A stretch of 58,027 nucleotides of DNA from Opitutales bacterium (GTDB lineage Bacteria > Verrucomicrobiota > Verrucomicrobiia > Opitutales > UBA953): contig JAGBIL010000034.1 of NCBI GenBank assembly GCA_017935025.1, positions 1 through 58,027 of the forward strand, written 5' to 3'. Shown here one piece after another: positions 36,701-57,747 of the stretch. Each line of letters starts with the position of its first letter. Positions within the stretch are counted from its first letter, which is position 1. Position numbers and translations under genes: made by a program. Below the pieces are notes generated by a model. It did not search any database, was not told where the DNA came from, and saw nothing but the letters and a program-made list of their open reading frames with translations.

Positions 36701-38165
36701 AAAGCGTGCGCGACTGTCGGTCCAATGTGAGATAGCCGAGCCCGACTTCGCGCAAATACGACAGGCGATTTCGCGTTTCGGCGAGGGCGATATCTTCCGG
36801 GGCGGACGACTCGGAGCGCGTTCCGGAATCGGCGGGAACGTCCAAAAGCGCGAGTAATTCGTCCACCGTTTTTGAATACAATTCCGGAAGCGTGTTCCCG
36901 CGCCACTTCCAGCACAGGGATTCTTCGCGGAATCGCGTTCCCGCGCATTCCGGGCATTTGGTGTACGCGCGGAAACGCGAAAGGAACACGCGCACGTGCA
37001 TTTTGTAAGACGTACTTTCAAGCCAAGTAAAAAAGCGGCGCACGCCGTACCAGCGTTTATCCCAGCTTTCCTCGCTCCAATCGTCGTCTCCCGCCAAAAC
37101 GTATTCGCGGATTTCGTCGGAGAGCTCGCTCCACGGAACGTTAGTCGGAATTTTTTTGCGGCGGCACGCTCGAAGCAAATCGGTTTGGGACGTGCCGTAA
37201 ACCTCTCCGGAAAACGGGGCGAAAACACCTTCAGCGAGCGTTTTCGAATCGTCGGGAATAACTTTTTTCCAATCAATTTCAATAACGCGACCGAAACCGC
37301 GACAGCGCGGACACGCCCCGATCGGAGAATTGAACGAAAACAGCGCAGGCGTCGGCTCGCGGAAGCGCCGCCGCGTTTTCGGCGAAACAAGTTTGTCCGC
37401 AAAGGCTCCGATTTCCTCGTATCTTCCCGCCGCTTCGCCTTTTTGAAAAAGAGAAAGCATCCCGCCGCCGAGCGACATCGCAGACGCGGCGGCTTCGATA
37501 AAGCGGGAACGTTCCGTATCCGCAATTTTTATACGATCGGAAACGATAAAAATCTTCCCGGGATTTCGGGGGTCGGGCTCGCGGAGAAAATCTTCGATTT
37601 CAAAAAGTTCGCCGTCCGCGATAAGTTTGGTAAATCCGCGCGAAACAAACTCCGGCAAAATTTCCGTCCACGCGATTTTCTTCGGGCGCTCCAACAAAAA
37701 AGCAACGACGAGCGGCGTTCCCGCGAACCGTTCCCGCGCGTGCGCCCAAAGCGTTGCCGGCGACCACGCGTGCAAGGCTTCTCCGGTGGCAGGATCAATC
37801 AGCTCGGAGTGGTGCGCGAACCAGATTTTCATCCAATCGCAGAGCTCCGTCATTGTACCGACGGTCGAGCGCGAAGTTTTTACGGAATTTCCCTGCTTTA
37901 TCGCAATGGACGGGCGCACGTTTTCCACGGCGTCCACGTCTGCCTCCGGCAAAAGTTCGAGAAATTGCCGCGTGTAAGGCGAAAATGTTTCGACGTAGCG
38001 GCGTTGCCCCTCCGCGTGAAGCGTTTCAAAAACAAGTGAGGATTTTCCCGCGCCGGAGAGCCCCGTAACGACGACGAGTTTCCCGACGGGAATGTCCGCA
38101 TCGATTCCCTTCAAATTGTTTTGGCGCACGCCGCGCAAGCGAATGAATTCCGGCGATTTTTTCAT
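33597..38165 (-). CDS. uvrA: Tandem UvrA (excinuclease ABC subunit A, double-length), frameshifted near its 3' end
   Basis: An open frame of 1522 residues holding a complete UvrA (about residues 1-950) followed by most of a second one. ABC signatures appear in order: GLSGAGKSS, LSGGETQR, LFILDEPSVGLH; GVSGSGKST, LSGGEAQR, LLDEPTTGLH; GVSGSGKSS, LSGGEAQR, VLDEPSIGLH. Zinc modules CPRC...CPEC, CPHCGGAG...CPVC and CEAC...CPVC lie between them. The fourth ATPase module is in another frame (see 32512-33746); the last about 35 residues here are out-of-frame readthrough. With one base restored the protein has about 1880 residues, like the duplicated UvrA of chlamydiae. It acts in nucleotide excision repair damage recognition. 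ATG at 38165, no ribosome binding site seen. Confidence 0.9.
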   Translation of the reverse strand: MKKSPEFIRLRGVRQNNLKGIDADIPVGKLVVVTGLSGAGKSSLVFETLHAEGQRRYVETFSPYTRQFLELLPEADVDAVENVRPSIAIKQGNSVKTSRSTVGTMTELCDWMKIWFAHHSELIDPATGEALHAWSPATLWAHARERFAGTPLVVAFLLERPKKIAWTEILPEFVSRGFTKLIADGELFEIEDFLREPDPRNPGKIFIVSDRIKIADTERSRFIEAAASAMSLGGGMLSLFQKGEAAGRYEEIGAFADKLVSPKTRRRFREPTPALFSFNSPIGACPRCRGFGRVIEIDWKKVIPDDSKTLAEGVFAPFSGEVYGTSQTDLLRACRRKKIPTNVPWSELSDEIREYVLAGDDDWSEESWDKRWYGVRRFFTWLESTSYKMHVRVFLSRFRAYTKCPECAGTRFREESLCWKWRGNTLPELYSKTVDELLALLDVPADSGTRSESSAPEDIALAETRNRLSYLREVGLGYLTLDRQSRTLSGGETQRVNLTACLGASLANTLFILDEPSVGLHARDLGKMVAILRRLVDGGNTVVVVEHDESVMRAADWLIEIGPRPGAEGGQLVYAGAPAGILKCKDSVTGAWLSGARNPQIFKEKSDSLAKKNVPKVRIANVFAHNLHDFSAEFPMRALVGLCGVSGSGKSTLLNNVLAHFAEDKSGVPAEDDFELPPFTFETDEAIREVVLVDQSPVSKTPRSNTALYAGIWEYVRKLLAGTEEAQRLGLTTAHFSFNSGDGRCPHCGGAGWEAVEMQFLSDVHVPCPVCEGRRFRKEVLGFRYAEKNVAEILDMTVSEAKTFFAGTRQIIEKLNLLESIGLGYLSLGQPLNTLSGGEAQRLKLVKFLTGIETAKPGKSGGETSDGLLILLDEPTTGLHREDISLLIKILKKLVSAGNTVVVVEHQTDVLLACDWLLELGPEAGAAGGKLVAAGTPGQLARGNTATAPFLKNALSDAAGESTLACVREDAAPPYSGRGKNAQIVLDGVREHNLKNVSLKIPHHALTVFTGVSGSGKSSLAFDVIFAEGQRRFMECMSAYARQFVEQMPRPDVDILEGLPPTVAIEQRITRGSAKSTVATVTEVAQYLRLLFARIGVMHNPRTGTPLVAGTQEQVVERIGSVLKKRKKNEKLFLAAPLIRNRKGHHQPLATWAIEHGFEKLRIDGIITDLKNFKPLDRYKEHDIEVVVAELASGNAGEHGLKKSAAEALRLGKGVAVLLDARGNAVEWLSRERIDPTTGEAFPEPDPKNFSWNSPRGWCEACHGHGRVVEAWGAEEDALNDDALSDRVSRKICPVCGGERLNPIARAVKIFADEKCSAGTAFSLPQLLALPPARLLDVLDHLKLNARDKAVAARIVPEVRARLKFLDGVGLGYLTLERASNTLSGGEAQRIRLAAQLGSNLSGALYVLDEPSIGLHPRDNTRLIESLKNLRDRGNTVLVVEHDEDTMRAADNVVDLGPGSGTQGGEILFSGTPKNLEKSAKAKNSRTAKFCPRELRIRCAARGAKFRATRNLLLCAGRACGI

Positions 38166-39726: not shown

Positions 39727-40734
39727 ATGAAAAAAATTCCTCTTTTGACGGCGACCGTCGGAGCGATTCTGACTTTTTTTGCAAGTACACTGTTCTCCGA
39801 AACCAAAATCGCCTGCATCGGCGATTCCATCACGTTCGGATATCTCATTCCCTCCCGTGATGCCGACAGTTATCCTAAACAGCTCGGAAAGCTACTCGGC
39901 GACGAATTTGAAGTCCGCAATTTCGGAAATCCCGGAAAAACCTGCGGAGACTATCCGAGTCAAAAAAACCGCCGCCGCTGGCTCGGCGACAACGAGGAAC
40001 ACAAGAACGGAACGGATTGGCAGGCGGATGTCTACATTTGCAATCTCGGCATCAACGATACCGGGGCATGGTGGGACGAAAAACTTTTCGTTTCCGGTTA
40101 CGAGCGGCTTATCGAAGATTGGTTCGGCGGGCGCAAAGGCGTGTCGTTGCTGATGTGGACAAAACTTGCACCCGACTTCCGCGGTCCCGACGGCAAAGCA
40201 ACGTTCCCGGGCAACGTGTTTCTGCCCAAATTTTCGTTCCCGAAGCAGGACAACGGCTCGGCAAAAAATCGCCCGGTAGCGGAAAAACTTTTGGCTAAAA
40301 TCGCGAAAAAATACAAAGCGCACGAAATTGATGCCTACACTCCGCTCGCAGCGCATCCCGAGTTCTATTTGCCGGACGGGCTCCACCCGAATGCGCTCGG
40401 AGCAAAGCGCATTGCCGAAATCACGTTTGCCGGGCTCGTCAAAGCGGATTTGCCGAAAGTAAAAATCCCGCAGTCCAAACCGCAACTCGTTCCCGCAAAA
40501 GACGGGAAAAGCATTGCGCTAAGAAACAAAAGCGACATCGCAGTTTTGCTCGACGGAGCATCGTTGCGCCACGGGAAAACGACGTTCGTCTTTGAAAATG
40601 CGACCGTTATTCCGCCGCGGGGAGAAGTCGTCGTCGCTCTCGGGGGAAAGCAGGATCAGAAAGACCCGGCAAAACCGCTTGTTTCCTCAAAGCTGAAGCG
40701 TGCGACGGGTGTAAAATACGTTCCCGCGAATTAG
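39727..40734 (+). CDS. Exported SGNH/GDSL esterase
   Basis: A 335-residue exported hydrolase. The signal peptide ends near residue 24 (FFASTLFSE). SGNH blocks are visible: IACIGDSITFGY (Ser nucleophile), FGNPGKT (Gly), NLGINDTG (Asn) and LPDGLHPNALG (Asp-x-x-His). The C-terminal 80 residues form an extra small domain with a beta pattern (KDGKSIALRNKSDIAVLLDGASLR). Such enzymes deacetylate sugars, for example sialic acid or xylan, which fits the GH2 gene in the window. It begins 24 bases after tRNA-Pro and converges on the next SGNH gene, 15 bases away. Confidence 0.88.
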   Translation: MKKIPLLTATVGAILTFFASTLFSETKIACIGDSITFGYLIPSRDADSYPKQLGKLLGDEFEVRNFGNPGKTCGDYPSQKNRRRWLGDNEEHKNGTDWQADVYICNLGINDTGAWWDEKLFVSGYERLIEDWFGGRKGVSLLMWTKLAPDFRGPDGKATFPGNVFLPKFSFPKQDNGSAKNRPVAEKLLAKIAKKYKAHEIDAYTPLAAHPEFYLPDGLHPNALGAKRIAEITFAGLVKADLPKVKIPQSKPQLVPAKDGKSIALRNKSDIAVLLDGASLRHGKTTFVFENATVIPPRGEVVVALGGKQDQKDPAKPLVSSKLKRATGVKYVPAN

Positions 40735-40749
40735 ACGGGAACGTCGCAA

Positions 40750-41523
40750 CTATCGGGAAAGCCGCTTAAGCGTCGGGAGAATTGCGTTCGCCCAACGGCG
40801 GTAGCCTTCTTCATTCGGATGAAGAAGATCCGGCATGACCGTACGCGAAAGGGTCTGAGCTTCGTCTTTTTCGAGAAAAACTTTATTGATGTCGAGCCAG
40901 TAGACGAAACGATTATCCGCAAATTTTTTAATTATTCCGTTTATCTTTTCGTTGGTTTGACGCCGTACGTCATTTTTATCGGCCCCTCGCGGGAACACGG
41001 CGAGCAAAAGCACTTTTGTTTTCGGATGCGCTGCACGAATCTTTTCCAAAATTGCCTTCACGCCCAGGGCCGTATCTTGCGGACGGTTTTTCCAATTGTT
41101 CGTCCCTATCATGAGAACAACGAGTTTCGGCGACATTTTTCCGGAAAGATTTCCGCTGTCTAAGCGCCACAAAATATTTTCCGTCTTATCGCCGGAAATC
41201 CCGAAATTCACGGCTCCGAGCGGCTCTATTCGCGCGTCCCAAATTGCTTTTCCGCCGCGAGCCGACGGAGCGCGCCTCCACAAATCCGTAATGGAATCAC
41301 CGAGAAAAACGATCTTCGCGTTCCGTTCCCGCGCAATAGCGTTGAAACTGTCATTCATGTTTTTCCACCAGCCGAGATTTTCCCGGCTTGCGGGAATACA
41401 GGTTACGGGAACTTTTTGTTCCGCTCCTTCCGCGGCGGCAAAAACGGACGTTCCCGCAACCGGACACGCAACAAAAACAGAAAGAAGCACAAAGCTTTTG
41501 AAAACAGTTTTAACGAGATTCAT
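40750..41523 (-). CDS. Exported SGNH esterase, PAF-acetylhydrolase-like
   Basis: A 257-residue exported hydrolase with a signal peptide (KSFVLLSVFVACPVAGTSVFA). The SGNH blocks are IVFLGDSITDLW, NFGISGDKTENILWRL, VVLMIGTNNWKNRP and MPDLLHPNEEGYRRW, and the order matches the group that contains the catalytic subunit of platelet-activating-factor acetylhydrolase and bacterial acetyl esterases. I chose the ATG at 41523; 16 open codons precede it. It is convergent with the other SGNH gene but only distantly related to it. Confidence 0.88.
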   Translation of the reverse strand: MNLVKTVFKSFVLLSVFVACPVAGTSVFAAAEGAEQKVPVTCIPASRENLGWWKNMNDSFNAIARERNAKIVFLGDSITDLWRRAPSARGGKAIWDARIEPLGAVNFGISGDKTENILWRLDSGNLSGKMSPKLVVLMIGTNNWKNRPQDTALGVKAILEKIRAAHPKTKVLLLAVFPRGADKNDVRRQTNEKINGIIKKFADNRFVYWLDINKVFLEKDEAQTLSRTVMPDLLHPNEEGYRRWANAILPTLKRLSR

Positions 41524-41580
41524 TTCAGAAACGGTAACCCCTTTCCCCTCACGTTGAAAATATATTTTCAAATATTCCGC

Positions 41581-42115: not shown

Positions 42116-45100
42116 TTAGAAGCGGGAACGGAAGCCGAGATTTACGGAATGAGCCGTATCGGAATCCGTGGAAAACTCGAAACGATAGCCGCCGTAAATG
42201 CTGTTATTGCGGTCAAGGTCGTAGCTAAAGCGCGGTCCGACGGAGAACGTGTCTTCCGCAAACGTTTTCGCCGAAGCCGTATACTTTTCACCGCCGAGAG
42301 CCGGCATTCCGTAGTCGATATCGACTTCCGAATCCATCAATTCGCGCGTATAAGCAATGTCGAGATTCGTACGGGTGTTTTTCCCGAGGAACGGCGTAAC
42401 AAGTGCCAGCGAAGCGCCGACCGTCGCACGCAGGCTACTCGCGCCGAACGAATCCGTATCGAGCGCTGTTTCCGCCCCGGATTCGTCAAACGCGCCGATT
42501 CCGTAATAGGAATATGCCAAGCCGACGTAGGGCATGAGGTTCAAACTCGTTTTTTCGTCTTCGCTCATGGAAAGCGGAATCAGCATCCCGAGGTTGGCGA
42601 ACGCGCCTGCATGCCATCCGGAGGTGTCACCGTCAACACCGCCGAGGAGCGTGTTGCGCTTGACATCGAACATCGCAAAACCCGCCTGAGCCCCCGCGTC
42701 GAGATAGAAGCGCTCCGCAAAGAGTTTTCCGACAAACGCCGTTGCGCGGATATCGTGAGATTCGATATCGCCTCCGCCGTTGTGAATATCCGCCTTGCCG
42801 TAATCGTATGCGAGCGAGAACCCGACCACCGTCGTTGCGTCAATTTTCGCATCCATCCCTGCGATTGCTCCGTAGGTGTTCATGTCAAACGTACGCGTAT
42901 CCGAACTTTCATCCGCTTCGGAGAGCGCGCCTTGCGCTTGGGCAAAGAATTCCCAGTCGTTGTGAATTTCCCACGTAAACGTTGTGTAGCTGTCGTAGCG
43001 ACGCTGTTCGATGCGTGAGGAGATCGCGGAAATATCGCTGATGAACCCGCTTTGCGGGAGCGCAAGCATCGCACCGTAACTGAGCGGGGAAAGATTGTTC
43101 ATCGTTCCTGCGAGCGAGCTGTTCGGCGTTTTGATAATCGCTTCCGCGAGGAGTTTTTCCGCATCGGAGAGAGTCGCTTTCAATGCGCCGCCTTCCGGGG
43201 TCGCAATTCCGCTCAAATACGCGATGTATTCCGGGCTCAAACCTTCGTGGAGCTTCACCCCCGGGATCGATGACAAATCCTCCGTCGCAACGTAGATCAC
43301 GAGTGCATCCGTTCCCGTCGTTGCTTTCAGGTATTTTACGCCCGTTGTCGAGTCGTCGATGAAGAGGTTTCCGAGACCGGTTTGAGGATCATACCACGAA
43401 ATTTTGTTGAGCGCATTTTCGCCGAGACCTTCGATGAGAGCGACGGGAACGCCGCGAGAGTCAAGCGAATCGGGATCAAGCGTAACGTTAATCTTGCCGG
43501 TCGCCGTTGCCGTTCCCGTGAAGCGGATCGCCTCGCCCGTAAAGGCGAAATTACTTCCTTCTTCAAAGGTAACATTGGAACCGCTCGCGACCAAATCCAC
43601 ACCGCCGATGAGCGTGCTGCCGCGTTCCACCGTCAGCGAGGACGATTGCGAAACCGTTCCCGCTGCGTATTCCAACGCGGAATTTCCGGAAACGACAGTC
43701 GCACCTGTGTAAGAAAGCGTTCCCGCAGTAAGTTTCAGGTTCGCACCGTTTGTTACGGTAACATCGCCCGAGCCGGAAATGTCTCTCCCCCACTCTGTTT
43801 GCGGAGCCGCCGGAAGCGCGCGGAGCGAGTAGCTTCCCGCAACCGGAGTTCCGTCGAAGACGAGACCTCCGCCGACGTTGGTTTTCAGGTTAAAGACTTC
43901 GGCATTGAGTTCTCCGAGATTACGGAGCGTCAACGCGCTTCCCGCAACGTTTGAGAGTGTAACATCCAGAGTGCCGTCGAGGACAATTGTATCTCCGTCG
44001 ACATTTTTCAACTTAAACGCAGTAGCGACGGCGGCGGCTCCCAAGTCAAGCGTTCCCGAGCAGGAAAGCGAAAGCGATTTAACGGACTGCTGTACTTCTA
44101 CAGAGGTTCCGGTTCCGGAGAACTTCGAGCCTCCGTCAATCAAAACGGACGAAGAAGCGCCGACCGCAACGATCGAGCCGTTCCAATCGGACGAGACTCC
44201 GACTCCTCCGTTTTCGGTAGCCGTTCCGACGTAGATCGTCGAAACGGGAATTGAACTGTTTCCTGAAGGATCCTTTCCGAAAACCAACGCCCCGTTACCG
44301 ACAACCGTCAACGAGGTCAGTGCGCCCTCAATTTTCCCGACGAACTTTTCCGCTCCATCGGCGTTCCCGTCGACACGCACCGTCAGGTTCTGTGCCGCGA
44401 CTGTAACTGTCCCTTCGCCGGAGAACGCGGCGAACTCCGTAACGTTGCCCCCGAGAGCCAGAGTCGTATCTTTCGAAAGACTTACGACACCACTGAAGTC
44501 CGACGCATTGAAGTCGGAGACGTTCACGGTCGTTGCTGTCGTCAAATCAAACGCGAGCGTTCCCGTACCGGCAAGTTCTCCGAGGTTACCGAGGTCAAAA
44601 TTCGTTCCCGCGAAATTTTCGCAGAATGTAAATTTTGCACCGTCCGCAATGGAAATGGATTTCGGCAACGAGCCGCCGTTTTCCGCAAACATATCGCCGC
44701 TGACGGCGAGTTCTCCCGCGCGCACATCTATCGCCAAATCGGAAACGGAAATACTGTTCGTTGTGCTCCCGTCACGCAGGATATTCACCGTCCCCTCGCC
44801 GTCTTTGACAATCGTCCGACCGTCAAGCCCCACAGCGCTTCCGCTAATCTTCAAGCCGTCATAGGAAACTTCCTGATCCTTCCCGGCGGCAAAAACGATG
44901 GTTCCGCCGTTAAATTCAATTTCGCCGCCGAATGCCGTCTTTTCGCGGACGTAATCGGTGTTCCCGAGCGTAAGCGTCGAATCCTTGTCGCCGTTGAAGA
45001 TAAATTTCCCGGAGCCGGCGAGTGTTCCCGCGATTGTGCCGGAACCTTCCAACGCCACAGTACGATCAGCGCCGATATTCAGAACGGTTTGAGCCTCCGC

Positions 45101-48100
45101 GTTCAGAGATGTCAGAACCACGTCTTCTGCAGAGGTCGATGCCGGACTCCCGTTGAGGACAAGTGTTGCCCCGCCGCTAAGCTCCAACGAAGAAACGCCG
45201 GCAAGAGAACCGTTCGTTACCGTAAGCGTTTTCGCGACATAGACATCGTTGATATTGGTTTCAGAGGAAGAAACAATGAGCGTCCCGTTGCCGCCGGCGA
45301 TTGTCGCATCCGTCAGTGCTGCGTCCGCGTCCAAGTCAAAACTCAATGCTGCCTTTTCGCCGAGGTTGACCGTCTTAAACCAAGATTGCGTTCCGTTTCC
45401 GGAAACCGAAAGGTTGAGCGTACCGCTTTTGATATCAACGGCTGAAACGCTGATTTTTTCGGAAGCAACCGTCAAAATATTGTTCACGGAAGCAACATCC
45501 GAATTCGGACGAGAAACTCCGGCATCAAGAACGAAAGTTCCTTCCCCGTCAATCACTCCCGTGAAATCCAACACGGAAGGTTGCGTTCCGACGATGTAGC
45601 CGAATCCGCCCGTCCGCACGAACGAGAGCTCAAAGCTCGGAGTCGCGACAGGATTTCCAGCCGTTTCCGTATCTTTCGAGAAATAGATGTTAAACGCGAG
45701 CGGCGTTTGAGCCGCCGTACGGGCGACGGAGTCGACCTCCGCTTTCAATGTACCGTTTGCAACGAGGAAACTCCCGGTAAAGTCGGACGCGTTTTCGGCG
45801 ACATCCGCCAATGCACTTCCGAGGTCCACCTTGCCGTTGCCGAGCTTGAGGACCGTGCCGAGCCCGGAAAGACGCGCATAATCCGCATTACTTCCGGAAA
45901 ACAGCGAGCCGTAGCCTTTATTGTTTTCGTAGCCGGTATCTTTTCCCGTTTCAGGGTCCGTGTAGGCTTCACGAATATCCGCATCCGTTCCGGAAATCGT
46001 AAGAAGCGCGCCTTCGTCGACAGTGATTCCGACCGTGCGTTGAATCGCGTTCCAATCAACGAATAATTCCCCCGATTTGACCAATGTCGTTCCCGTGTAG
46101 GAATTTTGCCCCGTCAATCTCAGCGTTTCCGCTCCGGTTTTAATGAGCGAACCGGTACCGGTGAGCGTTCCCGCGAAATCCGGGGAAGCGACACCGAATG
46201 ATTCGACAAACTTTCCGTAATTGGCAGTGTTCCCGCTCATCCATGCGGAACTGTCAACCCCGTAAATTTGCCCGATTTGCGTCGCAACATCCTGCGTCAG
46301 GACAAATTCATAATCAGAGTAAAACTCAGTGATAAACGAGTACAACGAATCGTCCGCCATCCCGACGAGAAACCAATCATACTTGGATTTCAGGTATTCG
46401 AGTCCTCCGGCTGCTACAATCGCGTTCCACCCGTTCGTGTTTAAGTTTCCTTGCGAATCAAGGTATCCTCTCACGCCGTCCGAGCGCTCCGTAATCGTTT
46501 GCGCCAGTACCGTCAGGCTCTGTTTTTGAGACGCGGAAAGCGCGCTTCCGTCATTGGAGATAAAGTTGATGATTTTTTCCGTGGTAAATTCTTTGCGCAA
46601 CCAATCAGCAATCGTTGCGGCATCACCAAAGACGATATTCCCGTAAAAAGCTTCCTTCATTTTCGCAAACACATCGTTCCCGTGCTGGTCGACACCCGTC
46701 GAGGTAAAGAGCGATGCGAACGCGCCGTCGAGGACGTTGCTGTCGGTTTTGTAAGCCAACTTCGCCGGATTTTTCAAATACGTCAACGTGTCTTCCGTGG
46801 TCTCGGGAATAGAAGACGTCGCAGACCCCGGCTGGTATAAGCGGGCATTTTCCGCCGCCGTTTTGAGGTTTTGCTGCACAGACGCAACGCCCGTTCCCGA
46901 AAACAGATTGTCGTATGCACCGTAGTTCGATGTCGCAAAATACGAACCGTCGCTTGCGCCGGACGGTTTCGAGTTCCCGCCGACCGTCAGCGAACCGTTC
47001 ACGGAAACAGCGGACATCGCTTCGCCGACAAGGGCTCCGACACGAGCATCAGAAGCAAGCGTCGCCGAGGTTCCCGCCTTCAACACGAGACCGGAAGCGC
47101 CCACGCTTGATGCGCCCTGATTAACGGAGACGGAACCGGAAAGCACGGAAAGCGAACCGACGAGTTCCCCGTATTTATTGGAGGAAATGATTTGATTCGA
47201 CTTGCCGAGTTTTACCAGGTTCCCCTCTCCGGCAAAGCCACCGGCATAGGAATTGTCCGTATTCGTCAGAACCAATGTTCCTCCTTCCGAAATTCGCACG
47301 GCGGACGAACCGGTCGCCCCCTTCAGATTGCGGACAAGTTGCGTTCCCGTGATCATGAGCACGGAGGCTTCCCACAGCCCGGCATCGGGGTAATCCGAAC
47401 CAATTAATTCGATCGAAGAGGCACCGGAGAACACACTCTCAGAGCTCGTCTCCGCGCCCAAATGCAAAGTTACGCCCTCCTCAACGAGGACTTTCCCGTA
47501 AAACAACGTCTGCTGTTCCGTGATTTGAATCCCTCGTGCGTTGTCGGCACCTCCCTGCTGAGACCACCGGCTTTTGCGGTAAAGGAGATCGCTTTCCGTG
47601 TATTCTCCGGACCTGACGGCTTCCAAAGAAGCTGCCGTCAGATCATTTTCGACAAAGTAGCTGGAGCACAAACGCAACACAGAAGTGGGATCAATCGCCT
47701 GAACCGTGAACGTCGCCGCATCCGGTTCTCCGACACTAATCGTCAGTTTTCCTTCCTTGGCTATCGTTACTGCTGTCGAAAACGCGCCGCTGAAAAGCCA
47801 CTCACCATCTTCGATTCGGAGATTGTCAATCCGGTCTCCTCCCCAGTAAATAAAACGTCCGGCACCGGTTTTCACAACAAGCCCGCCCGTGCCGGAGACG
47901 ATATTTCCGTTGTAAATCCCATCGCGTCCTTTATCCTGCTTAATGGTCAGAACTGCATTTCCTTCCAAAAATACACTCGTTCCGCTTCCGACACTGATTT
48001 TATCGGAAGTCGATCCTGCGGAAAACGCAACCGGTTCGTACTTCTGTGCGACAGGGCTATCGAGCGCGGGATCGCTGAGCAATGCCGACCGCTCAGCCCA

Positions 48101-49441
48101 AAGTGATTGGAAATTGTTGAAAACCTGGTTTCCGTAAACGGTAATCCTCACAGGATCAAGAACCGCCCCCGCAAAACCTTCAACATAGAGCGATCCCGCG
48201 TTGACAATATTCCCGCCCGAGGCGACGTTTGCCAAATCGTCCCCCGCCTTTGAGTCAAAATGGAGATTGACCCCGGCGAAGTCTGCGCCGGAAACCAAAT
48301 GCACCGCCGTCGCATTCGCAAAAACATTGTCGACAACAGCGAGCCTCCCGTCGGTACCAACCGTTCCCGTGCTCCCGACATTTACGGCTTTCGTCCCGAG
48401 AATGATGTCGGCAAGCTTATTTCCGCTAATCCATGTGTTCCCGGAGGTGTCCGCGTTCCCGTTGGCGTCAACATTCGAGCCGGGATCCAGCTCGGACTCT
48501 CCGATGAACGAAATCGTTCCGTTCCCCGTCGTGTAAATGCGCCCGTTTCCGGAGAGGCGACCGACCGTAGATTCCTTTCCGGTATAGGTGTTAAAAAAGA
48601 TACGATTGATCGACGCGGCATCACTTCCGATAACGATACGGGAATCCGATGTTGAAGTGATGTTGTTGACGAAATTCAACGAGAGCACTTCCTTCGGATT
48701 GTAATTTTTCTGCGGATCCAGATCCGTCAACGTCGGTCGCCTATCGACCATGTTTTTGGCGGAACCGGCAAAGGAAAGCGTCGCCCCGTCTTTCAGTTCA
48801 ATCGCCTGAACACCGAGATGCCCGGAAAGCACTCTGGCATAAAGATTTTGATCCTTCGTTCCCGTCGGTTTTACAAACGTGACGAATTGAGAAAGCTGCC
48901 CCTGAACGTTGAGCGTCGTTTCGCCATCAACAACAAGTTTCCCGGTAAAGTTCCCGGCGGACCAAAAGCTGTCCATCCCTTCCCATGCGTCCCAGACATT
49001 GGGCGCATCCGTGGGGGAAATTACGGCGTAGCTATTGCGGTTCATCTGATACGTGCTCGTGTAATAGCCGGAACCTAAGCTTCCGCCCGTGTACGTCAAC
49101 GAACCGCCACCTGTAATTGTAATCGTTTGCTCGTCCGTACGCTCTACAATGCCGGTTATATTGCCTTGCTCGTCTCTCTGGGTGCTATACCAGACTAACG
49201 GGTTTTCAACGTTGGCCTCGTAGCGTGCCGCAGTCTGTTCCGCCATCGAACCGTTCGCTGAAACGAAAGCTCCGTTGAGCGTTATCGTTCCGCCGCCGAG
49301 GTCAATCGTGAAATCATTTTCCACCACGATGTTTCCGGAAATATCCCGCGTCGGAGCGAGGTCCTCGGAAACGGCGGAAACGACGAGCGCAGAGCTCGCG
49401 AACAACGCCGCAGCAAACAATGTCTTTTTTGAAAAATTCAT
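42116..49441 (-). CDS. Giant autotransporter (2441 residues)
   Basis: A type V secreted surface protein. The N-terminal signal peptide is MNFSKKTLFAAALFASSALVVSA. The passenger is a long beta helix with many autotransporter-associated strand repeats, such as LTGTGSLIKTGAETLRLTG and NSYTGTTLVKSGEL. At about residues 827-1087 it is interrupted by a roughly 260-residue segment rich in helix formers (TEDTLTYLKNPAKLAYK..., KMKEAFYGN, DWLRKEF). The last about 290 residues form the outer-membrane beta barrel, ending in the insertion signal GFRSRF. Thr/Ser/Gly/Asp-rich with no Cys in the passenger, as usual. Probably an adhesin; no enzymatic motif seen. It follows the larger paralogue by 50 bases. 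Confidence 0.93.
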   Translation of the reverse strand: MNFSKKTLFAAALFASSALVVSAVSEDLAPTRDISGNIVVENDFTIDLGGGTITLNGAFVSANGSMAEQTAARYEANVENPLVWYSTQRDEQGNITGIVERTDEQTITITGGGSLTYTGGSLGSGYYTSTYQMNRNSYAVISPTDAPNVWDAWEGMDSFWSAGNFTGKLVVDGETTLNVQGQLSQFVTFVKPTGTKDQNLYARVLSGHLGVQAIELKDGATLSFAGSAKNMVDRRPTLTDLDPQKNYNPKEVLSLNFVNNITSTSDSRIVIGSDAASINRIFFNTYTGKESTVGRLSGNGRIYTTGNGTISFIGESELDPGSNVDANGNADTSGNTWISGNKLADIILGTKAVNVGSTGTVGTDGRLAVVDNVFANATAVHLVSGADFAGVNLHFDSKAGDDLANVASGGNIVNAGSLYVEGFAGAVLDPVRITVYGNQVFNNFQSLWAERSALLSDPALDSPVAQKYEPVAFSAGSTSDKISVGSGTSVFLEGNAVLTIKQDKGRDGIYNGNIVSGTGGLVVKTGAGRFIYWGGDRIDNLRIEDGEWLFSGAFSTAVTIAKEGKLTISVGEPDAATFTVQAIDPTSVLRLCSSYFVENDLTAASLEAVRSGEYTESDLLYRKSRWSQQGGADNARGIQITEQQTLFYGKVLVEEGVTLHLGAETSSESVFSGASSIELIGSDYPDAGLWEASVLMITGTQLVRNLKGATGSSAVRISEGGTLVLTNTDNSYAGGFAGEGNLVKLGKSNQIISSNKYGELVGSLSVLSGSVSVNQGASSVGASGLVLKAGTSATLASDARVGALVGEAMSAVSVNGSLTVGGNSKPSGASDGSYFATSNYGAYDNLFSGTGVASVQQNLKTAAENARLYQPGSATSSIPETTEDTLTYLKNPAKLAYKTDSNVLDGAFASLFTSTGVDQHGNDVFAKMKEAFYGNIVFGDAATIADWLRKEFTTEKIINFISNDGSALSASQKQSLTVLAQTITERSDGVRGYLDSQGNLNTNGWNAIVAAGGLEYLKSKYDWFLVGMADDSLYSFITEFYSDYEFVLTQDVATQIGQIYGVDSSAWMSGNTANYGKFVESFGVASPDFAGTLTGTGSLIKTGAETLRLTGQNSYTGTTLVKSGELFVDWNAIQRTVGITVDEGALLTISGTDADIREAYTDPETGKDTGYENNKGYGSLFSGSNADYARLSGLGTVLKLGNGKVDLGSALADVAENASDFTGSFLVANGTLKAEVDSVARTAAQTPLAFNIYFSKDTETAGNPVATPSFELSFVRTGGFGYIVGTQPSVLDFTGVIDGEGTFVLDAGVSRPNSDVASVNNILTVASEKISVSAVDIKSGTLNLSVSGNGTQSWFKTVNLGEKAALSFDLDADAALTDATIAGGNGTLIVSSSETNINDVYVAKTLTVTNGSLAGVSSLELSGGATLVLNGSPASTSAEDVVLTSLNAEAQTVLNIGADRTVALEGSGTIAGTLAGSGKFIFNGDKDSTLTLGNTDYVREKTAFGGEIEFNGGTIVFAAGKDQEVSYDGLKISGSAVGLDGRTIVKDGEGTVNILRDGSTTNSISVSDLAIDVRAGELAVSGDMFAENGGSLPKSISIADGAKFTFCENFAGTNFDLGNLGELAGTGTLAFDLTTATTVNVSDFNASDFSGVVSLSKDTTLALGGNVTEFAAFSGEGTVTVAAQNLTVRVDGNADGAEKFVGKIEGALTSLTVVGNGALVFGKDPSGNSSIPVSTIYVGTATENGGVGVSSDWNGSIVAVGASSSVLIDGGSKFSGTGTSVEVQQSVKSLSLSCSGTLDLGAAAVATAFKLKNVDGDTIVLDGTLDVTLSNVAGSALTLRNLGELNAEVFNLKTNVGGGLVFDGTPVAGSYSLRALPAAPQTEWGRDISGSGDVTVTNGANLKLTAGTLSYTGATVVSGNSALEYAAGTVSQSSSLTVERGSTLIGGVDLVASGSNVTFEEGSNFAFTGEAIRFTGTATATGKINVTLDPDSLDSRGVPVALIEGLGENALNKISWYDPQTGLGNLFIDDSTTGVKYLKATTGTDALVIYVATEDLSSIPGVKLHEGLSPEYIAYLSGIATPEGGALKATLSDAEKLLAEAIIKTPNSSLAGTMNNLSPLSYGAMLALPQSGFISDISAISSRIEQRRYDSYTTFTWEIHNDWEFFAQAQGALSEADESSDTRTFDMNTYGAIAGMDAKIDATTVVGFSLAYDYGKADIHNGGGDIESHDIRATAFVGKLFAERFYLDAGAQAGFAMFDVKRNTLLGGVDGDTSGWHAGAFANLGMLIPLSMSEDEKTSLNLMPYVGLAYSYYGIGAFDESGAETALDTDSFGASSLRATVGASLALVTPFLGKNTRTNLDIAYTRELMDSEVDIDYGMPALGGEKYTASAKTFAEDTFSVGPRFSYDLDRNNSIYGGYRFEFSTDSDTAHSVNLGFRSRF

Positions 49442-49451
49442 TAGAAAACCG

Positions 49452-49460
49452 ATATTGGGG
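49452..49460 (-). promoter_or_regulatory. Leader motif CCCCAATAT before autotransporter gene
   Basis: On the minus strand CCCCAATAT ends 10 bases before the start codon at 49441. The same nonamer ends 8 bases before the start codon of the other autotransporter (57756-57764). There is no Shine-Dalgarno sequence at either start. Shared position suggests a common leader function or recent shared origin. Confidence 0.4.
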
Positions 49461-49491
49461 TTAATTTTTTAGAATTCGTTAAATTGCCTGA

Positions 49492-52400
49492 TCAGAAGCG
49501 ATGCCGGAATCCGGCGTTGATATTTTGCGAAACACCGGAATCCGTGTCCACATCGATCCCGTAGCCGAAGTAAAGACTACTACGCTCGGAAACCATAATG
49601 TCCACCGTCGGTCCGAAAGAGAAAATATCTGTCGGCAACGCCTTCCCGGAGGTGCTGAACTTCGAGCCGTCAACCGCTGCAAAACGCCCGGTCATATCCA
49701 GTTCCTCTCCGAGGAAATCATGCGAATACGCCACTTCAACACCGAGGCGCACCTGCCAACTGTCGAGCGGGAACGCCCACTGCAAGGCGGCGGCGATCCG
49801 CGCGCGGAGGCTGTCGCCGTCCGTGTCATCCATATTCAGCCCGGACGTTCCGCTTTCGGTAAATCCGTCAATTTCGGTGTGCAAGTAACTCAAACCGACG
49901 CTCGGAGTAAAGTAAAGCCCGCTGCCGTCCTTCTTGTCCTGCCAGATTGAAAACACGGATCCGACGGTAACAAACGTTCCCGCGAAGACAGAATCCGTAT
50001 CTCCGGAAACCGATCCGGCAAACGTCTGCCGACGCGTGTCAAACGTCGCCGTTCCCGCCTGAACGCCGACATCCACGTAGGAATTTCCGAAGAGTCGGCT
50101 GGCGAACGCCGTTGCGCGCATATCGTCCATATTAATTTTTCCGCCGCCGTTCTGAATTTTTGCCTTCCCGTAAGTGTAGCCGAGGGCAAATCCGAGCGTG
50201 GTTTCGTAGTTCGGCTTCCAGTCGAATCCGGCAGTAACCCCATAAAGGTTGTAGTCGAAATTCGGTGCATCCGAAGCCGTACCGTTTTCAGCAAAATCGC
50301 TTTGAGCGAGGGCAAAGAATTCGTACTCGCCGCTGTCGCGGAGCGGATCTGCGCCATCGTAACGGCGTTGGTCGAGGCGACCGTGAATGCGCGCCACGTC
50401 GGAATTAAATGCCGCAGTCGGCATAGCCAACATCGACGCAAAAGAAATCGGAGAAAGTTTTTCAACTTCTTCTGCCAAACGCGACGCAGGCAGGCTGTTC
50501 AACGCGAAGAACAAATCCTTTGCTACTCCCGTCAGCGTCGGGTTACTGTCGACATCAATGATGTTTGCACCGTTCCACGAAGCGATTTCGGAAAGAGCTC
50601 CAAGGAAGCTGTCGGAAACACCTTCGTTGTAATCCGCACCGAGCCCCGAGAAATTATCAATAATCATCCTGGCGCAAACGTCGCCGTTCGCATCCGTGTA
50701 AACCGCTAACTTCATCTTTTCGGCATCCGGACGACCCTCATTTGCCTTGCGAAGCGCGGCGACCACCGAGCCGTCAACCGTTCCCGCGCTGACGAGTTTC
50801 AGCGTCTTTCCGAGTGTTTCCGTGCCGAGATTTTCAACGTAAATCGAGCTTCCGCCCTTAATCGTAACCCTTCCTGCGCCGACGGAAATGCTGTCGCCCT
50901 CCGTTGCATTAAGGACCACTCCGGAAGAGCTTTCCAAAATCACATTTCCGGCGACCGTAGTTTTCCCCGCGATGCTTGAGCCTTCGCCGACCATCCCCGG
51001 GAGCGCTCCCGTGTTAACGGAAATCGCGTAGCTTTCGTTTAACCCGGAATCTGTCGCAGTAAGCGTCAGCACTCCGTCCTCAAGTTTCAGCGAAGCCGGA
51101 TCAATCGTAACGCCCGCCGGCGGGGTTCCGAGGATTTCCCACGTCGCCGTGTCGAGGGTGCCGTTCGCACGGACCTTAACCTGTGCCTTGATGTCGGATG
51201 CCAAACGTGCGTCGGAAAGCGCAATCGTGAGCGTCGTCGTTCCCGCCGCGCCCGTATCGTCCGCATTACGCACCGCGCTCACGGAGTAGCTGACATCTCG
51301 ACCTGTCATGTTGACGCCTCCGTGAAGCGTCGAATCACCTGCGACCGTGAGCTGAGAAGACGCGTTGTGGCGACCTGCTCCGGAAAATTCGACATTTCCG
51401 ACGATTTCCGTCTGTCCCAAATATTCCTGCTTCGCGGAAACGATCAAGCCATTTCCGGTCGTTCCGTCGAACATCACATTCCCGCCGCCGCGAACGGTTT
51501 CGGCAAAAACCTGAGTTCCCGCCGCGAGTGCTCGCGAGGACGATGCCGTCGACTTAATCGTCAGCGTCCCGGAATTGCCCGAAGCGGCATCGCGCAACGT
51601 AACGAGGTCGACATTGACGCCGTTTGCCGTCGTGAGCGTTTCACTGTCGTCGTTCCATTCGACAACCATGTTGCCTTCGCCGACGCCGAGATTCAGCAAG
51701 CCGTTGTTGTCTTCAAGGACCGAGTAAACATCTCTCGAAATACCGAAAACGCTGTCGCGTGGCGTGTTTGAGCGCCCCAAATCATTGGCGATTGTCGCCG
51801 CGGAAATCGTAAACGTTGCGTTCTCTCCCGTTTTGATGACGGAAAGTTCCTTGAGCGCGGAAGCCGCTTCCGCGTCATTAATTTTGGCATCCACATCAAT
51901 TGTCGTTCCCGCCGCAACCAACGTCCCGGAATCTTGAGCGAGATCAACGATAAACGCATTAGCGATAGAAGATTTGTCGATTACGACAGCCATGTCGGCT
52001 TCGGTACTCTTGAAGCCGAATCCGATGTTTGCCATTTTAAATTCCGAATTGCCGTGCGTGTAGTCTCCGGAAACCGTCAACGTCCGGAACTCCGACGAAA
52101 GCACGCGACCGGAATTTCCGTTTTTCGCATCAAGACCCTGCACCGTCACCGTTCCGCTGACTTCCAAGTCGCCCGCAATCTCGGAATTTTGAGATTGGAT
52201 AAACGTAACGTCCTCGACGCTGAGCGAAACGCCGCTACTCGTACCGACAGCGACCATCTGCGACGTGTTCGTTCCCTTGGCAAGTGTTACCTTGTACCCC
52301 GTTCCCGACGAAGTGAAACGAATTTCTCCGTTAAAGAAATCTCCGCTTCCGGAAACGTTAACCTTGTCCGGCGACAGCGTAACATCCTTCGTCGCCGTCA

Positions 52401-55400
52401 ACTCGAGCGTACCGCTCCCGTAAACCGTCGAGAAATCCGGTTCCGTATCGCCGACCGTCATCGAAAGTGTCGCACCGGAGGCGATGGTCTTCTTCGCACC
52501 GACCCAACCGGAAATGTTCAACGTGCCGTCATAGACGGAAACCGCGTTACAATTTGCAAAGTCGTTATGGGAAACGGACAGCGTCCCGTTTCCTACCTTG
52601 CCGAATTTGCCTCCGTTTGAGGTGAAGACTATCGCGCCCGTGCTAAGATTCGCCGTTCCCGCGTCGGAAACGAGGAAAACGACTTCGGAATCCGCACCGT
52701 CAACCGTAACCTTTGAAGTCTTATCTGGCGTGTTGTTTCCGCCGAAATTTACAGCGTTCAAAACGACTTGGCCGCCGTTCCTGACCGAAACATTCGCATC
52801 AACCGCGCCGGAGAAGCTTGATGCCCCCCCGACGACACTCAGCGTTCCCGCGCCCGCCACAGAGCCCGAGAAATCAGGGACCGCCAACAAAGATTCTTCA
52901 CTGAACGTATAGAAGCCCGCAGTTTGCGCCATTCCGATACGGGATTCGGAACTGCTAAGTTCCAGCGTCGAACCCGCGCCGAGGGAAAGCGTTCCCGTGC
53001 CGGCGATTGCAGTCAGAAGCTGCGTGGAATTTTCTTTAATCGAAAGTGTTGCGCCCGTGTTTACCGTCATGAGCTTCGCATCCGAGAAAACGGACATTCC
53101 GCCGAGCGACAGCGAGCCGCCGTTCAAAACTGTAACCGCGCCGACGAATTTTTCGTTATCGTCCGCGATAGAGGAACCGTCCAACGAGATTTCCCCCGCG
53201 ATGCGCAACGCACCTTCTCCCGAAAAACGGACAGAGCCGCCTACGGAGCTTTTCCCGAGCGAAAGAGCCGCGCCCTTGCCTATTTTAACGTTCGAATTTT
53301 GTCCGAAAGTAATACTCGAAAGATTCAACGTGCCTTCGTCCACCGAAATCGTTGCGAGCGTCCCAAGAGCGACATCCCCGCCGATCGTCAATTCACCGTC
53401 GCCGATTTTGGAAAGCGCCGCCCCCGTAACTCCGTTAGAGGCTTTAATTTCACCCGCCCATACGACATCTTCCGTCTGGTTCAGAATAAGCGCCGTATCG
53501 TTGCCGGAGAACGTAATGTGGCTCTGAGGCAAAATTGTTTTGGAAACACCGTCAACGACCGTCGTTTTCGCTTCGCGCAATGTCATTTCGAGCGTGCCGC
53601 CCGCAATCGTTGTCGTTCCCGTGTAAAGAACGTCCTTCCCGAGCGTAAGTTTACCGTCGCCGGTTTTGACAAAATTACCGTCGCCGGAAACACTTTGGTT
53701 AAACACGATTCCGACATTTTCGGTGTCTTCCGGATCCGCATTAACATTAACGGATAGTTCTGCATTGCGGCTAACGGAAATTCCGCCCGAGACCGGAGCC
53801 GCCAAGGACGAGCCCTCAATACTGAGCAGTCCGCTTTCGACAATGAGTGAATTTACGAAGAGCTTTCCGGTCAAATCAACCGTACTGTCTCCGGTTTTAA
53901 CCAATGTTCCGGTCGTTAAGGTTCCCGCAAAAGACGGCTCGGATATCCAACTCGTATCTGTAAGATTTCCGCCAACCGTTACTTGTGCGGCAAATGCTCC
54001 GGGAACGGAGATTCCCGCAAAAAGTTTTTTATTCTGAATCGCTTCGTACGCCGTACTCCACTTTTCGTATGCGGCTTTAATCGCAACGGTATCGGGATTT
54101 TCGGCATTGAGTAAAGCGTCGACAGCCGCGATATCGGCAACGCTCATAAGCGGCGTTCCCGCGAGGTTTTTCGCAGTTTTAAACTCGGCAAACATTGCCT
54201 CCGGATTCGCCGCGAGCTTCGCGTCCAACTGTGCCGACGAAAGCGTTTCGTACTTCGTACGGAGGACCTTGAACAGAGCTTGATTGATTGCGTTCTTTTC
54301 CGCCGATGTCGGCATCGCCGGAATCGATTTTCCGTATTCCGCTTCGACCTCCGCCTTCAGCTGTTCACTCACATACAACTTGTAATCGCGGTCCGACATG
54401 AGCGATTTCAATCCCGCCGGAGAATACCACTCATATTCGCCGACCGTTCCCGTGGGGGCAAAAATTTTCAGATAATTGGCTTCCGTTGCGAGCGTCGCGT
54501 ATTTTTCCGCAAGGTCCGCAAGTAAGGTTGATTGTGCGACCCCGTTAACCGCCGTTCCCGTGCCTCCGTTTTCGGCAAATGCTTTCAGGGCATCGTAGTC
54601 GGCTTGGGAGAGGAGTTCTCTTCCGTCGTAATCGTCGACTCCGACAAATTTTTCCAGAGCGGAAGCATCGAAGCCGGAATAAGCGAGCTTCGCCGTAGCC
54701 GTCAGGTATTTTTCCGTCGCATCCTTTTGCGAAGCAAGAGTGCCGATCGCATTGCCTTTCAAAACCAAATTGCCTTCGAGATCGAAGCAATTTTTGAAAC
54801 GAGCAAAAGAAGCATCTGTCGCGCCTGCGGCGACAGAGCCGAGACCGAGATTGTTCGTGACCAAAGCACGATTTTCGCCCGCAGCCGGCGTGATATTCGC
54901 TCCGAGCGTCAATTTCCCGTCCACGGTAACGGACGTTCCCGCAGAACCGTAGAGGGTGCGGATTTTTTGGTCGCCGATCATTTCGGCAACGGTGCCTTCG
55001 TTGAAGATAACGGCGGACGTTCCCGTAAGGCTGTTCTTCCGCGTAACAGAAAGTTTCCCGACGGCAATCTCCGTCGTTCCCGTGAAATTGCGATTATTTT
55101 CGCCGCCGCTGAGCGTAAACGTTCCCGCTCCGTCCTTAATAATACTACCGGATCCGATAATTTTACCCGCGTACGAACCGCGCGAGAGTCCGGAATAGAG
55201 GTCGACACCGTTGTCCGAAACGACAGTCGTGAGAATTCCGTTTCCGAGGAGAATTTCCGCCGAGGAGTCCCCGGTGAGATCGTTCACGACTTGGCTTGCA
55301 AAAACGCTTCCTTTCGGGAAGAGCGTCAGCGTCGGTGCCGCATTTTCCTGCTTCCACGCCTTGCCTTTCCAAAGCGTAACGGTATCCGCATTTGCAAACA

Positions 55401-57747
55401 CAGACTCATTTCCGGAAAGGTTCAACCCGATACCGGATTCGATGAAAATATCGCCGTAGATGCCGTCCTGAATTTGAGCAAATCCGATGTCAGCCTGCCG
55501 ATTGCCGCCGACGGAAACGACACCGCTAACCGTTTGAACCGTATCTTCCGTCGCGAAAACGAGTTGCGACCCTTTAACAAATCCGCTCAGTTTCACGTTC
55601 AACGTGCTACCCTGCGTAGCGACGAAGGATACAATCCCGCGTCCTCCCAAAGAAACCGTCGAGCCCGGCAATGAATTAACGGTAGAGACATTCAGCACCG
55701 TCTTCCCCGTGCGATTCGGGTCGATGTAAATCCCGCTGTAGTTTGCCGTTTCCAGAAGCAACGCCAGATCGCCGGCACCTTCGAGAACGAGCAAGCCGCC
55801 GGTAACGGTATCGTCCGCTTTGTAGTCAACGTAATACGCATTGTCGAGCGTTGTTTGCTTATAGTAGTTGACGACTTTCCACGCAACGGGATTATCCAGC
55901 GCGAACGAGCCGTCTGCTCCGATATTGAGTGCCGCGAGGTCGGCATCCGAAAGCCCGAGATCCGTTTTAATCGTATTCTTGGCAACCAATGCGGCTTTAA
56001 GGCGATCCGCGTTGCTGAGTGATGCTGTCGTTTGATCGTTTTCCGTGTTCGTCTCGAACGTGTTCTTGTTATAAATTGAAACGCGAGCCCCAACAACAGA
56101 GCCTTGGTAGACACCGCCCATTCCCGCCGCCTGATTGACGACCAAAACGCCGCCCTGCATATAGCCGTTGGCATCAACGTTTTGCACGAAATTTCCGTCC
56201 TTCAACGTGTAGTTCCCGCCCGGAATAACGATTTTGGACCCGATACCCGTTCCCGCGATAATCGGAGCATCCGAAGTGCCGCGTTCCGCTGTCGTAGTAT
56301 TTCCTTTAGGGGCCAAAACGCCTTCGTTGACGGAGGCATTCAGCACCGCGTCCGCCGCGGACGTTCCCGCGTTAACGGCAAGCCCGGCGTTAAAATACGA
56401 TTGCAAATTCTTAATGGTCTGATTTTCCGCAATAACGAGCGTTCCCGCTTCCGGAGTAGTAAAGAACGCCTCTTTAACGGCGGTAACGACGAGTTCTTCG
56501 CCCAAATCGGCATTCGTCGTTTTCGTGTAAATGCTGTAAACGCTCGAGCCGATAGCCGCCCCTTGCATAGACCCGCCGCTCGCCTCCTTGCCCGTGTTCA
56601 TCGTTCCCGCGATATTGACGGAAGCTGCATTCCCGACAGAGGAAGAGAGACGGACGCGAACGTTATTTCCGAAGCCGTCCGTAAACGTCTTCGTTTTTGC
56701 GCCGGTATCGTTCCCGGCGAGCACAAGCGATCCGCCCGCAGCATAAAGACTTCCGGAGAAAGCTTCACTGGAGTTCAAAATCGTAAACGTTCCCTTCCCC
56801 GTTTTGTAAATACTTCCCGCCCCGCTGATGCGCCCGATGGAACCGCCGAACGCCAACTGCGTGTCAAAGTATGTGCTCGTGAGGTTTCCGGAGAGTGTTA
56901 CTCCGGTGTCTACGCGAGTATTTTCCTCCCAACCGCCGACATTTAAATTGACGTGATAGGCCGAAGCGGATCCGAGCACGAGTTCCGAATTCAAGTCCGT
57001 TCCCAAATCCCCCGCCTGCAGGTTATTCAGGAATTGGAGCGTGGTAAGCGAATTGCTTGCCACCATTCCTTTTAACGCAGTCCATTCTCCGCTGACAAAG
57101 CTGTTATTTGCAGAAATATCAAGAGTCGCTCCGTTGCGAACCGTAATGCGGGAAACACCGACCATTTTCCCCGTCGCCTGTCCGATTTCTCGCGGGTTAA
57201 TGATGTTGCCGAAATCGTACCACATATTCACGAACCCGCCTAAAGCCAAGGTTCCCCGGTCGACGACAATTTCCCCGCTCTGCCAACCCTCAAGAATATT
57301 TTCCGTCTGCCCCGCCGTATAGTACTCAATTTCGTACTCCGCATCCGCCGGCACGGAGCCGTCCCTGCGCGTTACTTTGTAAACGGGACCGTCATTGTCA
57401 TCCTTATTATCGTCGCTGTAGCCGAAAAGATGCTGATTATACAAATATCCTTCGGCACCCAAATTCATTTGAGCCGTCCCCGAACCGGTCTTGACAAACG
57501 TCAGCCATGCAGGGGTATTTCCGACGATAAAATCCTTCGGATTCCACCAGCTCGTCTGCAAATAGGTGTTTTTAAGGATGTAGACGTTGTAGTGTCGGTA
57601 ATTCTCATAAAACCCGTCGTACACGATCCCGCCGGCCTTATCCACCTCGTCCTCAAAGAGATAGGCGTGCGCGGGAACGGCGGCGGCAAGACCGAGAGCC
57701 GCTGCGGCGAAAAACGTTTTTTTGGAAATTCGAGATGCGATAGACAT
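49492..57747 (-). CDS. Giant autotransporter (2751 residues)
   Basis: A paralogue of the downstream autotransporter. It has a signal peptide with RISKKTFFAAAALGLAAAVPAHA, and a beta-helical passenger with many repeats of the GAGTFTLSGGENNRNFTGTTEI and GNGTLSVSHNDFANC kind. At about residues 969-1242 a helix-rich segment (LEKFVGVDDYDGRELLSQADY..., LKAEVEAEYGKSIP, NAINQALFKVLRTKYE) interrupts the helix at the same relative place as in the paralogue. The C-terminal barrel (about residues 2470-2751) ends in AGFRHRF. The barrel starts with LSPISFASMLAMPTAAF, matching LSPLSYGAMLALPQSGF in the paralogue. Surface adhesin is the likely role; the ligand is unknown. Confidence 0.93.
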   Translation of the reverse strand: MSIASRISKKTFFAAAALGLAAAVPAHAYLFEDEVDKAGGIVYDGFYENYRHYNVYILKNTYLQTSWWNPKDFIVGNTPAWLTFVKTGSGTAQMNLGAEGYLYNQHLFGYSDDNKDDNDGPVYKVTRRDGSVPADAEYEIEYYTAGQTENILEGWQSGEIVVDRGTLALGGFVNMWYDFGNIINPREIGQATGKMVGVSRITVRNGATLDISANNSFVSGEWTALKGMVASNSLTTLQFLNNLQAGDLGTDLNSELVLGSASAYHVNLNVGGWEENTRVDTGVTLSGNLTSTYFDTQLAFGGSIGRISGAGSIYKTGKGTFTILNSSEAFSGSLYAAGGSLVLAGNDTGAKTKTFTDGFGNNVRVRLSSSVGNAASVNIAGTMNTGKEASGGSMQGAAIGSSVYSIYTKTTNADLGEELVVTAVKEAFFTTPEAGTLVIAENQTIKNLQSYFNAGLAVNAGTSAADAVLNASVNEGVLAPKGNTTTAERGTSDAPIIAGTGIGSKIVIPGGNYTLKDGNFVQNVDANGYMQGGVLVVNQAAGMGGVYQGSVVGARVSIYNKNTFETNTENDQTTASLSNADRLKAALVAKNTIKTDLGLSDADLAALNIGADGSFALDNPVAWKVVNYYKQTTLDNAYYVDYKADDTVTGGLLVLEGAGDLALLLETANYSGIYIDPNRTGKTVLNVSTVNSLPGSTVSLGGRGIVSFVATQGSTLNVKLSGFVKGSQLVFATEDTVQTVSGVVSVGGNRQADIGFAQIQDGIYGDIFIESGIGLNLSGNESVFANADTVTLWKGKAWKQENAAPTLTLFPKGSVFASQVVNDLTGDSSAEILLGNGILTTVVSDNGVDLYSGLSRGSYAGKIIGSGSIIKDGAGTFTLSGGENNRNFTGTTEIAVGKLSVTRKNSLTGTSAVIFNEGTVAEMIGDQKIRTLYGSAGTSVTVDGKLTLGANITPAAGENRALVTNNLGLGSVAAGATDASFARFKNCFDLEGNLVLKGNAIGTLASQKDATEKYLTATAKLAYSGFDASALEKFVGVDDYDGRELLSQADYDALKAFAENGGTGTAVNGVAQSTLLADLAEKYATLATEANYLKIFAPTGTVGEYEWYSPAGLKSLMSDRDYKLYVSEQLKAEVEAEYGKSIPAMPTSAEKNAINQALFKVLRTKYETLSSAQLDAKLAANPEAMFAEFKTAKNLAGTPLMSVADIAAVDALLNAENPDTVAIKAAYEKWSTAYEAIQNKKLFAGISVPGAFAAQVTVGGNLTDTSWISEPSFAGTLTTGTLVKTGDSTVDLTGKLFVNSLIVESGLLSIEGSSLAAPVSGGISVSRNAELSVNVNADPEDTENVGIVFNQSVSGDGNFVKTGDGKLTLGKDVLYTGTTTIAGGTLEMTLREAKTTVVDGVSKTILPQSHITFSGNDTALILNQTEDVVWAGEIKASNGVTGAALSKIGDGELTIGGDVALGTLATISVDEGTLNLSSITFGQNSNVKIGKGAALSLGKSSVGGSVRFSGEGALRIAGEISLDGSSIADDNEKFVGAVTVLNGGSLSLGGMSVFSDAKLMTVNTGATLSIKENSTQLLTAIAGTGTLSLGAGSTLELSSSESRIGMAQTAGFYTFSEESLLAVPDFSGSVAGAGTLSVVGGASSFSGAVDANVSVRNGGQVVLNAVNFGGNNTPDKTSKVTVDGADSEVVFLVSDAGTANLSTGAIVFTSNGGKFGKVGNGTLSVSHNDFANCNAVSVYDGTLNISGWVGAKKTIASGATLSMTVGDTEPDFSTVYGSGTLELTATKDVTLSPDKVNVSGSGDFFNGEIRFTSSGTGYKVTLAKGTNTSQMVAVGTSSGVSLSVEDVTFIQSQNSEIAGDLEVSGTVTVQGLDAKNGNSGRVLSSEFRTLTVSGDYTHGNSEFKMANIGFGFKSTEADMAVVIDKSSIANAFIVDLAQDSGTLVAAGTTIDVDAKINDAEAASALKELSVIKTGENATFTISAATIANDLGRSNTPRDSVFGISRDVYSVLEDNNGLLNLGVGEGNMVVEWNDDSETLTTANGVNVDLVTLRDAASGNSGTLTIKSTASSSRALAAGTQVFAETVRGGGNVMFDGTTGNGLIVSAKQEYLGQTEIVGNVEFSGAGRHNASSQLTVAGDSTLHGGVNMTGRDVSYSVSAVRNADDTGAAGTTTLTIALSDARLASDIKAQVKVRANGTLDTATWEILGTPPAGVTIDPASLKLEDGVLTLTATDSGLNESYAISVNTGALPGMVGEGSSIAGKTTVAGNVILESSSGVVLNATEGDSISVGAGRVTIKGGSSIYVENLGTETLGKTLKLVSAGTVDGSVVAALRKANEGRPDAEKMKLAVYTDANGDVCARMIIDNFSGLGADYNEGVSDSFLGALSEIASWNGANIIDVDSNPTLTGVAKDLFFALNSLPASRLAEEVEKLSPISFASMLAMPTAAFNSDVARIHGRLDQRRYDGADPLRDSGEYEFFALAQSDFAENGTASDAPNFDYNLYGVTAGFDWKPNYETTLGFALGYTYGKAKIQNGGGKINMDDMRATAFASRLFGNSYVDVGVQAGTATFDTRRQTFAGSVSGDTDSVFAGTFVTVGSVFSIWQDKKDGSGLYFTPSVGLSYLHTEIDGFTESGTSGLNMDDTDGDSLRARIAAALQWAFPLDSWQVRLGVEVAYSHDFLGEELDMTGRFAAVDGSKFSTSGKALPTDIFSFGPTVDIMVSERSSLYFGYGIDVDTDSGVSQNINAGFRHRF

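Follow-up and report, generated by a model that had tools for sequence, protein, structure and literature searches.

An old side-domain site in a tandem pair of autotransporters, probably enlarged differently by lineage within one Verrucomicrobiota family

Two adjacent genes in the window, the whole stretch of 58,027 nucleotides analysed here, encode giant autotransporters whose passengers are each interrupted by a helix-rich insert at the same site. Five of the family's genera have this site, and what fills it differs from one genus to another. It is fairly probable that the paired autotransporters carry an old side-domain site, where one ancestral element was enlarged differently lineage by lineage. 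Side domains as such are already known; what is new is a conserved gene pair with a single lineage-customised site.

The gene pair and its helix-rich inserts

The host is a Verrucomicrobiota genome of ∼2.03 Mb with seven PF03797 matches genome-wide; its nearest named relatives are metagenome-assembled genomes labelled "Opitutales bacterium" (goat and sheep rectum) and Candidatus Spyradosoma merdigallinarum. Gene B (P0002, 2751 aa, 49492-57747, minus strand) is the first of the pair and is followed on the same strand, after a gap of 50 bases, by gene A (P0001, 2441 aa, 42116-49441, minus strand). Both reading frames are intact. A Pfam scan places C-terminal PF03797 beta-barrels above cut-off at 42185-42949 in gene A (E 1e-35) and at 49558-50301 in gene B (E 1.4e-43), and the C-terminal 386 residues of the two proteins are 38% identical (BLASTP). 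Both proteins have a C-terminal phenylalanine, and by eye their N-termini are signal-peptide-like. PATR repeats (PF12951) over cut-off are located after the inserts in both; the scan gave no Pfam domain over cut-off in either gene besides PF03797 and PATR, and no peptidase domain in either whole protein at E up to 1. Genes A and B are tandem type Va autotransporters with beta-helix passengers. The pair is adjoined by two genes for GDSL-like hydrolases (39727-40734, plus strand, and 40750-41571, minus strand), and the window also encodes a UvrA-like protein of 1522 aa (33597-38165, minus strand), longer than the usual UvrA and with two stretches of the UvrA interaction domain.

The helix-rich inserts interrupt the beta-helix 34-35% of the way along. 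Insert A comprises residues 824-1085 (46187-46972, this and all following features on the minus strand) and insert B residues 952-1272 (53932-54894). Each is preceded by a conserved flank, which in gene A is a PATR-like module ending in VSVNGSLTVGGN (46973-47272) and in gene B ends in VTVDGKLTLGAN (54895-55194). Downstream, both genes restart with F-A-G-T-L...K-T-G modules: in gene A the beta-helix resumes with a PATR module beginning FAGTLTGTGSLIKTG (46052-46180; PF12951 matches best at residues 1099-1126, and modelled strands run from fragment residue 413), and in gene B there is a PATR-like module beginning FAGTLTTGTLVKTG (53812-53931). GC content falls at the inserts from ∼54% to ∼51%, a small drop only. 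Direct DNA repeats of at least 18 bases were found within neither insert, and insert A did not stand out in a simple composition scan.

AlphaFold2 was run with orthologues on fragments of 581 residues (gene A) and 621 residues (gene B); the alignments were shallow, with five and four sequences respectively. Both models show strands, then helices, then strands. In gene A the helices occupy fragment residues 235-375 (∼residues 914-1054, 46280-46702), with pLDDT mostly 76-91 up to fragment residue 340 and 50-67 thereafter. The helices of gene B, at fragment residues 168-403, are modelled less confidently: pLDDT is mostly below 55 before fragment residue 271 and ∼58-89 from there on, and the best-predicted part is fragment 280-400 (∼residues 1119-1239, 54031-54393). 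At the start of each insert, across most of its first 80-90 residues, pLDDT is below 50, and the models resolve no structure there.

In structural comparison (VIA-align) the alignment of the gene A fragment spans the insert for both IgA1 protease (Z 14.1, rmsd 4.9, 238 residues) and EtpA (Z 10.8, rmsd 3.8, 237 residues). As these are continuous beta-helices, the gene A stem very probably resumes past the insert. Matches of the gene B fragment to PDB chains are limited to the downstream stem. Fold searches of the PDB gave nothing convincing for the helices, the results being dominated by the beta-helix flanks; a new fold is not implied. According to the models, both genes have a non-beta-helix segment between beta-helix turns, with the stem resuming afterwards. 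The sequence-only reading, which had described a helix-rich break about one third of the way along each beta-helical passenger, is thus borne out, since helices were predicted between strands rather than the uninterrupted beta-helix that it had named as contrary evidence. Its coordinates for the breaks, 46180-46960 and 54010-54840, are essentially those of the refined insert A and lie within the refined insert B.

Comparison of the two inserts

The 100 residues that precede the insert align between genes A and B, and a single 99-position profile of them (A8) scores 104 bits in gene A and 116 bits in gene B. By sequence comparison the insertion site is homologous in the two genes, in agreement with the earlier proposal that the breaks lie at the same place.

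The similarity does not stop at the insert boundary. In the BLASTP alignment of A against B the flank segment (E 2e-14 as a whole) runs ∼70 residues into the inserts, ending at TLTYLKNPAKLAY in A and TEKYLTATAKLAY in B. The alignable start comprises ∼82 residues in gene A (46727-46972), where it includes YFAT, and ∼81 residues in gene B (54652-54894), where it includes NNLG. When the inserts were shuffled, the gain in alignment score from extension into them was matched in 4 of 2000 trials. Together these results make the first ∼70-80 residues of inserts A and B probably homologous. The same shuffle test across pairs of gene A and gene B orthologues gave p <0.05 in 12 of 64 pairs, which are not independent of one another. 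An insert-only profile comparison (hhalign) of A with B was not significant, the score of the A-B comparison was reached in 5 of 591 column shuffles, and the best pairwise local alignment of inserts alone among 64 pairs had a weak z of 3.2. Over the remaining 180-240 residues similarity between A and B is undetectable (best match 19 residues, P 0.11). The description of the two inserts as unlike each other therefore stands for the greater part of their length and fails for the beginning.

The site within the genus and the family

Within the genus, sampled as one genome from each of eight species, both genes are present in all eight. Insert A and insert B are likewise found in every species, and each gene retains its own orthologous insert. 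Insert B varies in length: it is as short as 111-137 residues in three species and reaches 359 in two. Comparison of the window with its closest relative gives a dN/dS of 0.07 in insert A and 0.13-0.15 in the rest of the gene A passenger; the corresponding values for gene B are 0.13 and 0.12-0.14. dS in the inserts is similar to dS in the flanks. Both inserts are constrained by purifying selection, and neither is decaying or diversifying fast. Invariant residues are few in insert A, all of them hydrophobic, aromatic, Gly, Pro or Thr. A search of 273 genomes of the order found neither insert in other genera. The sole match to insert A beyond the genus (G012, E 0.0098) belongs to an unrelated protein and was set aside, and a 42-residue match in Aminicenantes (L084) looks like chance. 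One observation on the gene A orthologue of G006 (L049:559-10686, minus strand, 3376 aa) is that ∼800 residues of D-x-DGYLVD-type repeats directly follow the insert site; Pfam DUF3659 covers part of this run.

The flank profile detects the site in five of the family's genera, and many of the genomes have it in two neighbouring frames of ∼2000-3000 aa; at E 1e-14 it has no match in other families of the order. Measured in 31 relative proteins from the flank to the next PATR module, the content of the site ranges over the five genera from 65 to 677 residues, and no empty site was found among these relatives. There are at least four kinds of filler: compact elements, TGTGIPAGTTI-type repeats, LPAGT-type repeats and the helices of the window genus. 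In genus g4 the site is compact (67-105 residues), and in g5 it holds 98-144 residues with stretches that by eye are EF-hand-like, such as DRDGDGSISAGEE (L141, L142). Of the two genes in genus g3, one has 65 residues at the site and the other 405, which include LPAGT-type repeats. In g2 both genes carry TGTGIPAGTTI-type repeats, over 167-677 residues.

Two short motifs, both picked after looking at the sequences, recur in the segment. Motif 1, Y-[LF]-x-T, occurs in the first 50 residues of 30 of the 31 relatives (∼3 expected), in nearly all of them ∼19-27 residues into the segment; in 27 of the 31 it is followed by motif 2, T-x-x-[YF]-L (0.3 expected). Among the gene A inserts of the genus, seven of eight have motif 1 in the first 50 residues (0.9 expected). 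Only three of the eight gene B inserts have it, and orthologues of gene B show N-N-L-G-T where it would sit. In the window itself, gene A has both motifs and gene B motif 2. Insert-only hhalign comparisons of the genus inserts with the elements of other genera were not significant, and a profile built from the compact elements did not detect the genus inserts. Since the motifs were chosen post hoc and the profile comparisons across genera are not significant, a single origin of the site elements is likely, not demonstrated.

The barrel tree groups sequences mostly by genus, with some neighbours nearly identical and a few rows from incomplete frames, and for these reasons it is unable to date the duplication. 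The near-identity of the barrels of neighbouring autotransporters within G032 and G023 (L140, L141) suggests homogenisation of tandem copies.

The reading given the most weight begins with a short element at the site, Y-[LF]-x-T followed by T-x-x-[YF]-L, that probably predates the split of the five genera and was probably also present in the common ancestor of genes A and B. Lineages would then have enlarged it differently, with helical domains in the window genus, other repeats in two genera and little elsewhere. The first ∼80 residues common to the inserts point to one such element, since diverged. The main competitor supposes a tolerant loop into which unrelated helical domains entered separately in A and B, at one hot spot. 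The lack of detectable similarity past residue ∼80, the quite different material at the site in other genera and the non-significant comparisons across genera are all compatible with it. It is nevertheless the less probable account, and we regard it as doubtful, because the alignment of the flanks continues into both inserts to an extent that shuffling seldom reproduces, because Y-[LF]-x-T lies near the start in nearly all relatives, and because no relative with an empty site was found, the shortest segment being 65 residues.

Exchange of whole domains by recombination at the site, by which cells would alter a surface function, is improbable. It would accord with the different types of sequence at the site in different genera, and the nearly identical neighbouring barrels in G032 and G023 indicate that copies may recombine. 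Against it, the insert of a given gene is the same in all eight species of the genus, insert dS is close to flank dS with low dN/dS, neither insert has a homologue elsewhere in the order, and GC content changes little. Of the domain swapping at a fixed site put forward in the sequence-only reading, the fixed site with different material is borne out on the scale of genera, the orthologous site being differently filled in the five of them. Exchange between strains or between the two genes is unsupported, as is recent swapping: across the eight species the insert of each gene is orthologous and constrained, and the two inserts share their start. Growth of one ancestral element, with the enlarged segments projecting at the surface, is inferred here in preference to repeated independent insertion. 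A wider form of this reading, in which the site serves the whole family for customisation and the shared short element is the starting point for a different surface domain in each lineage, with matching filler across the pair in some genera, is possible and is offered tentatively.

Putative function and relation to known systems

Passengers in type Va secretion are exported by the barrel, the beta-helix folds outside the cell, and segments between its turns form side domains. The helical inserts would be such side domains, extra segments between two beta-helix modules, and would stand out from the beta-stem on the cell surface after export of the passenger by the barrel. The inserts have no consistent match in Pfam and no match among PDB sequences. 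These results, together with the structural-looking invariant residues of insert A, make binding or adhesion likelier than catalysis, and the inserts probably display a module of this kind. That they are enzymatic or toxin-like effector domains on the stem is very unlikely; the side domains of the hemoglobin protease Hbp do carry its functionality (PMC3521207), but the database searches and the non-catalytic types of the invariant residues argue against such a role here.

To our knowledge, most side domains described on beta-helical stems belong to a small number of pathogen proteins. Compact content in some genera, and helices or repeats in others, make the site a natural series for studying how side domains arise, and the same series could inform on the insert sizes that the secretion pathway tolerates. 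The site also marks a likely outward-facing part of uncharacterised proteins of gut Verrucomicrobiota.

Among known systems, the passenger of Hbp has a stem that acts as a scaffold and side domains d1-d5 that carry functionality and are dispensable for secretion (PMC3521207). Genes A and B resemble it in having extra domains on a beta-helical stem, and by this analogy the inserts may be displayed side domains. They differ from Hbp in that the inserts are helix-rich and of 260-320 residues, that no protease domain was found, and that across a Verrucomicrobiota family the site is kept in a tandem gene pair and has content specific to the lineage. The N-terminal serine protease domain of the SPATE and IgA1 protease autotransporters was likewise not found in genes A and B. 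The PF03797 barrel, the PATR modules (PF12951) adjoining the insert and the C-terminal phenylalanine are shared with type Va autotransporters of the PATR type; the two proteins differ in having very long passengers with one fixed site of variable length.
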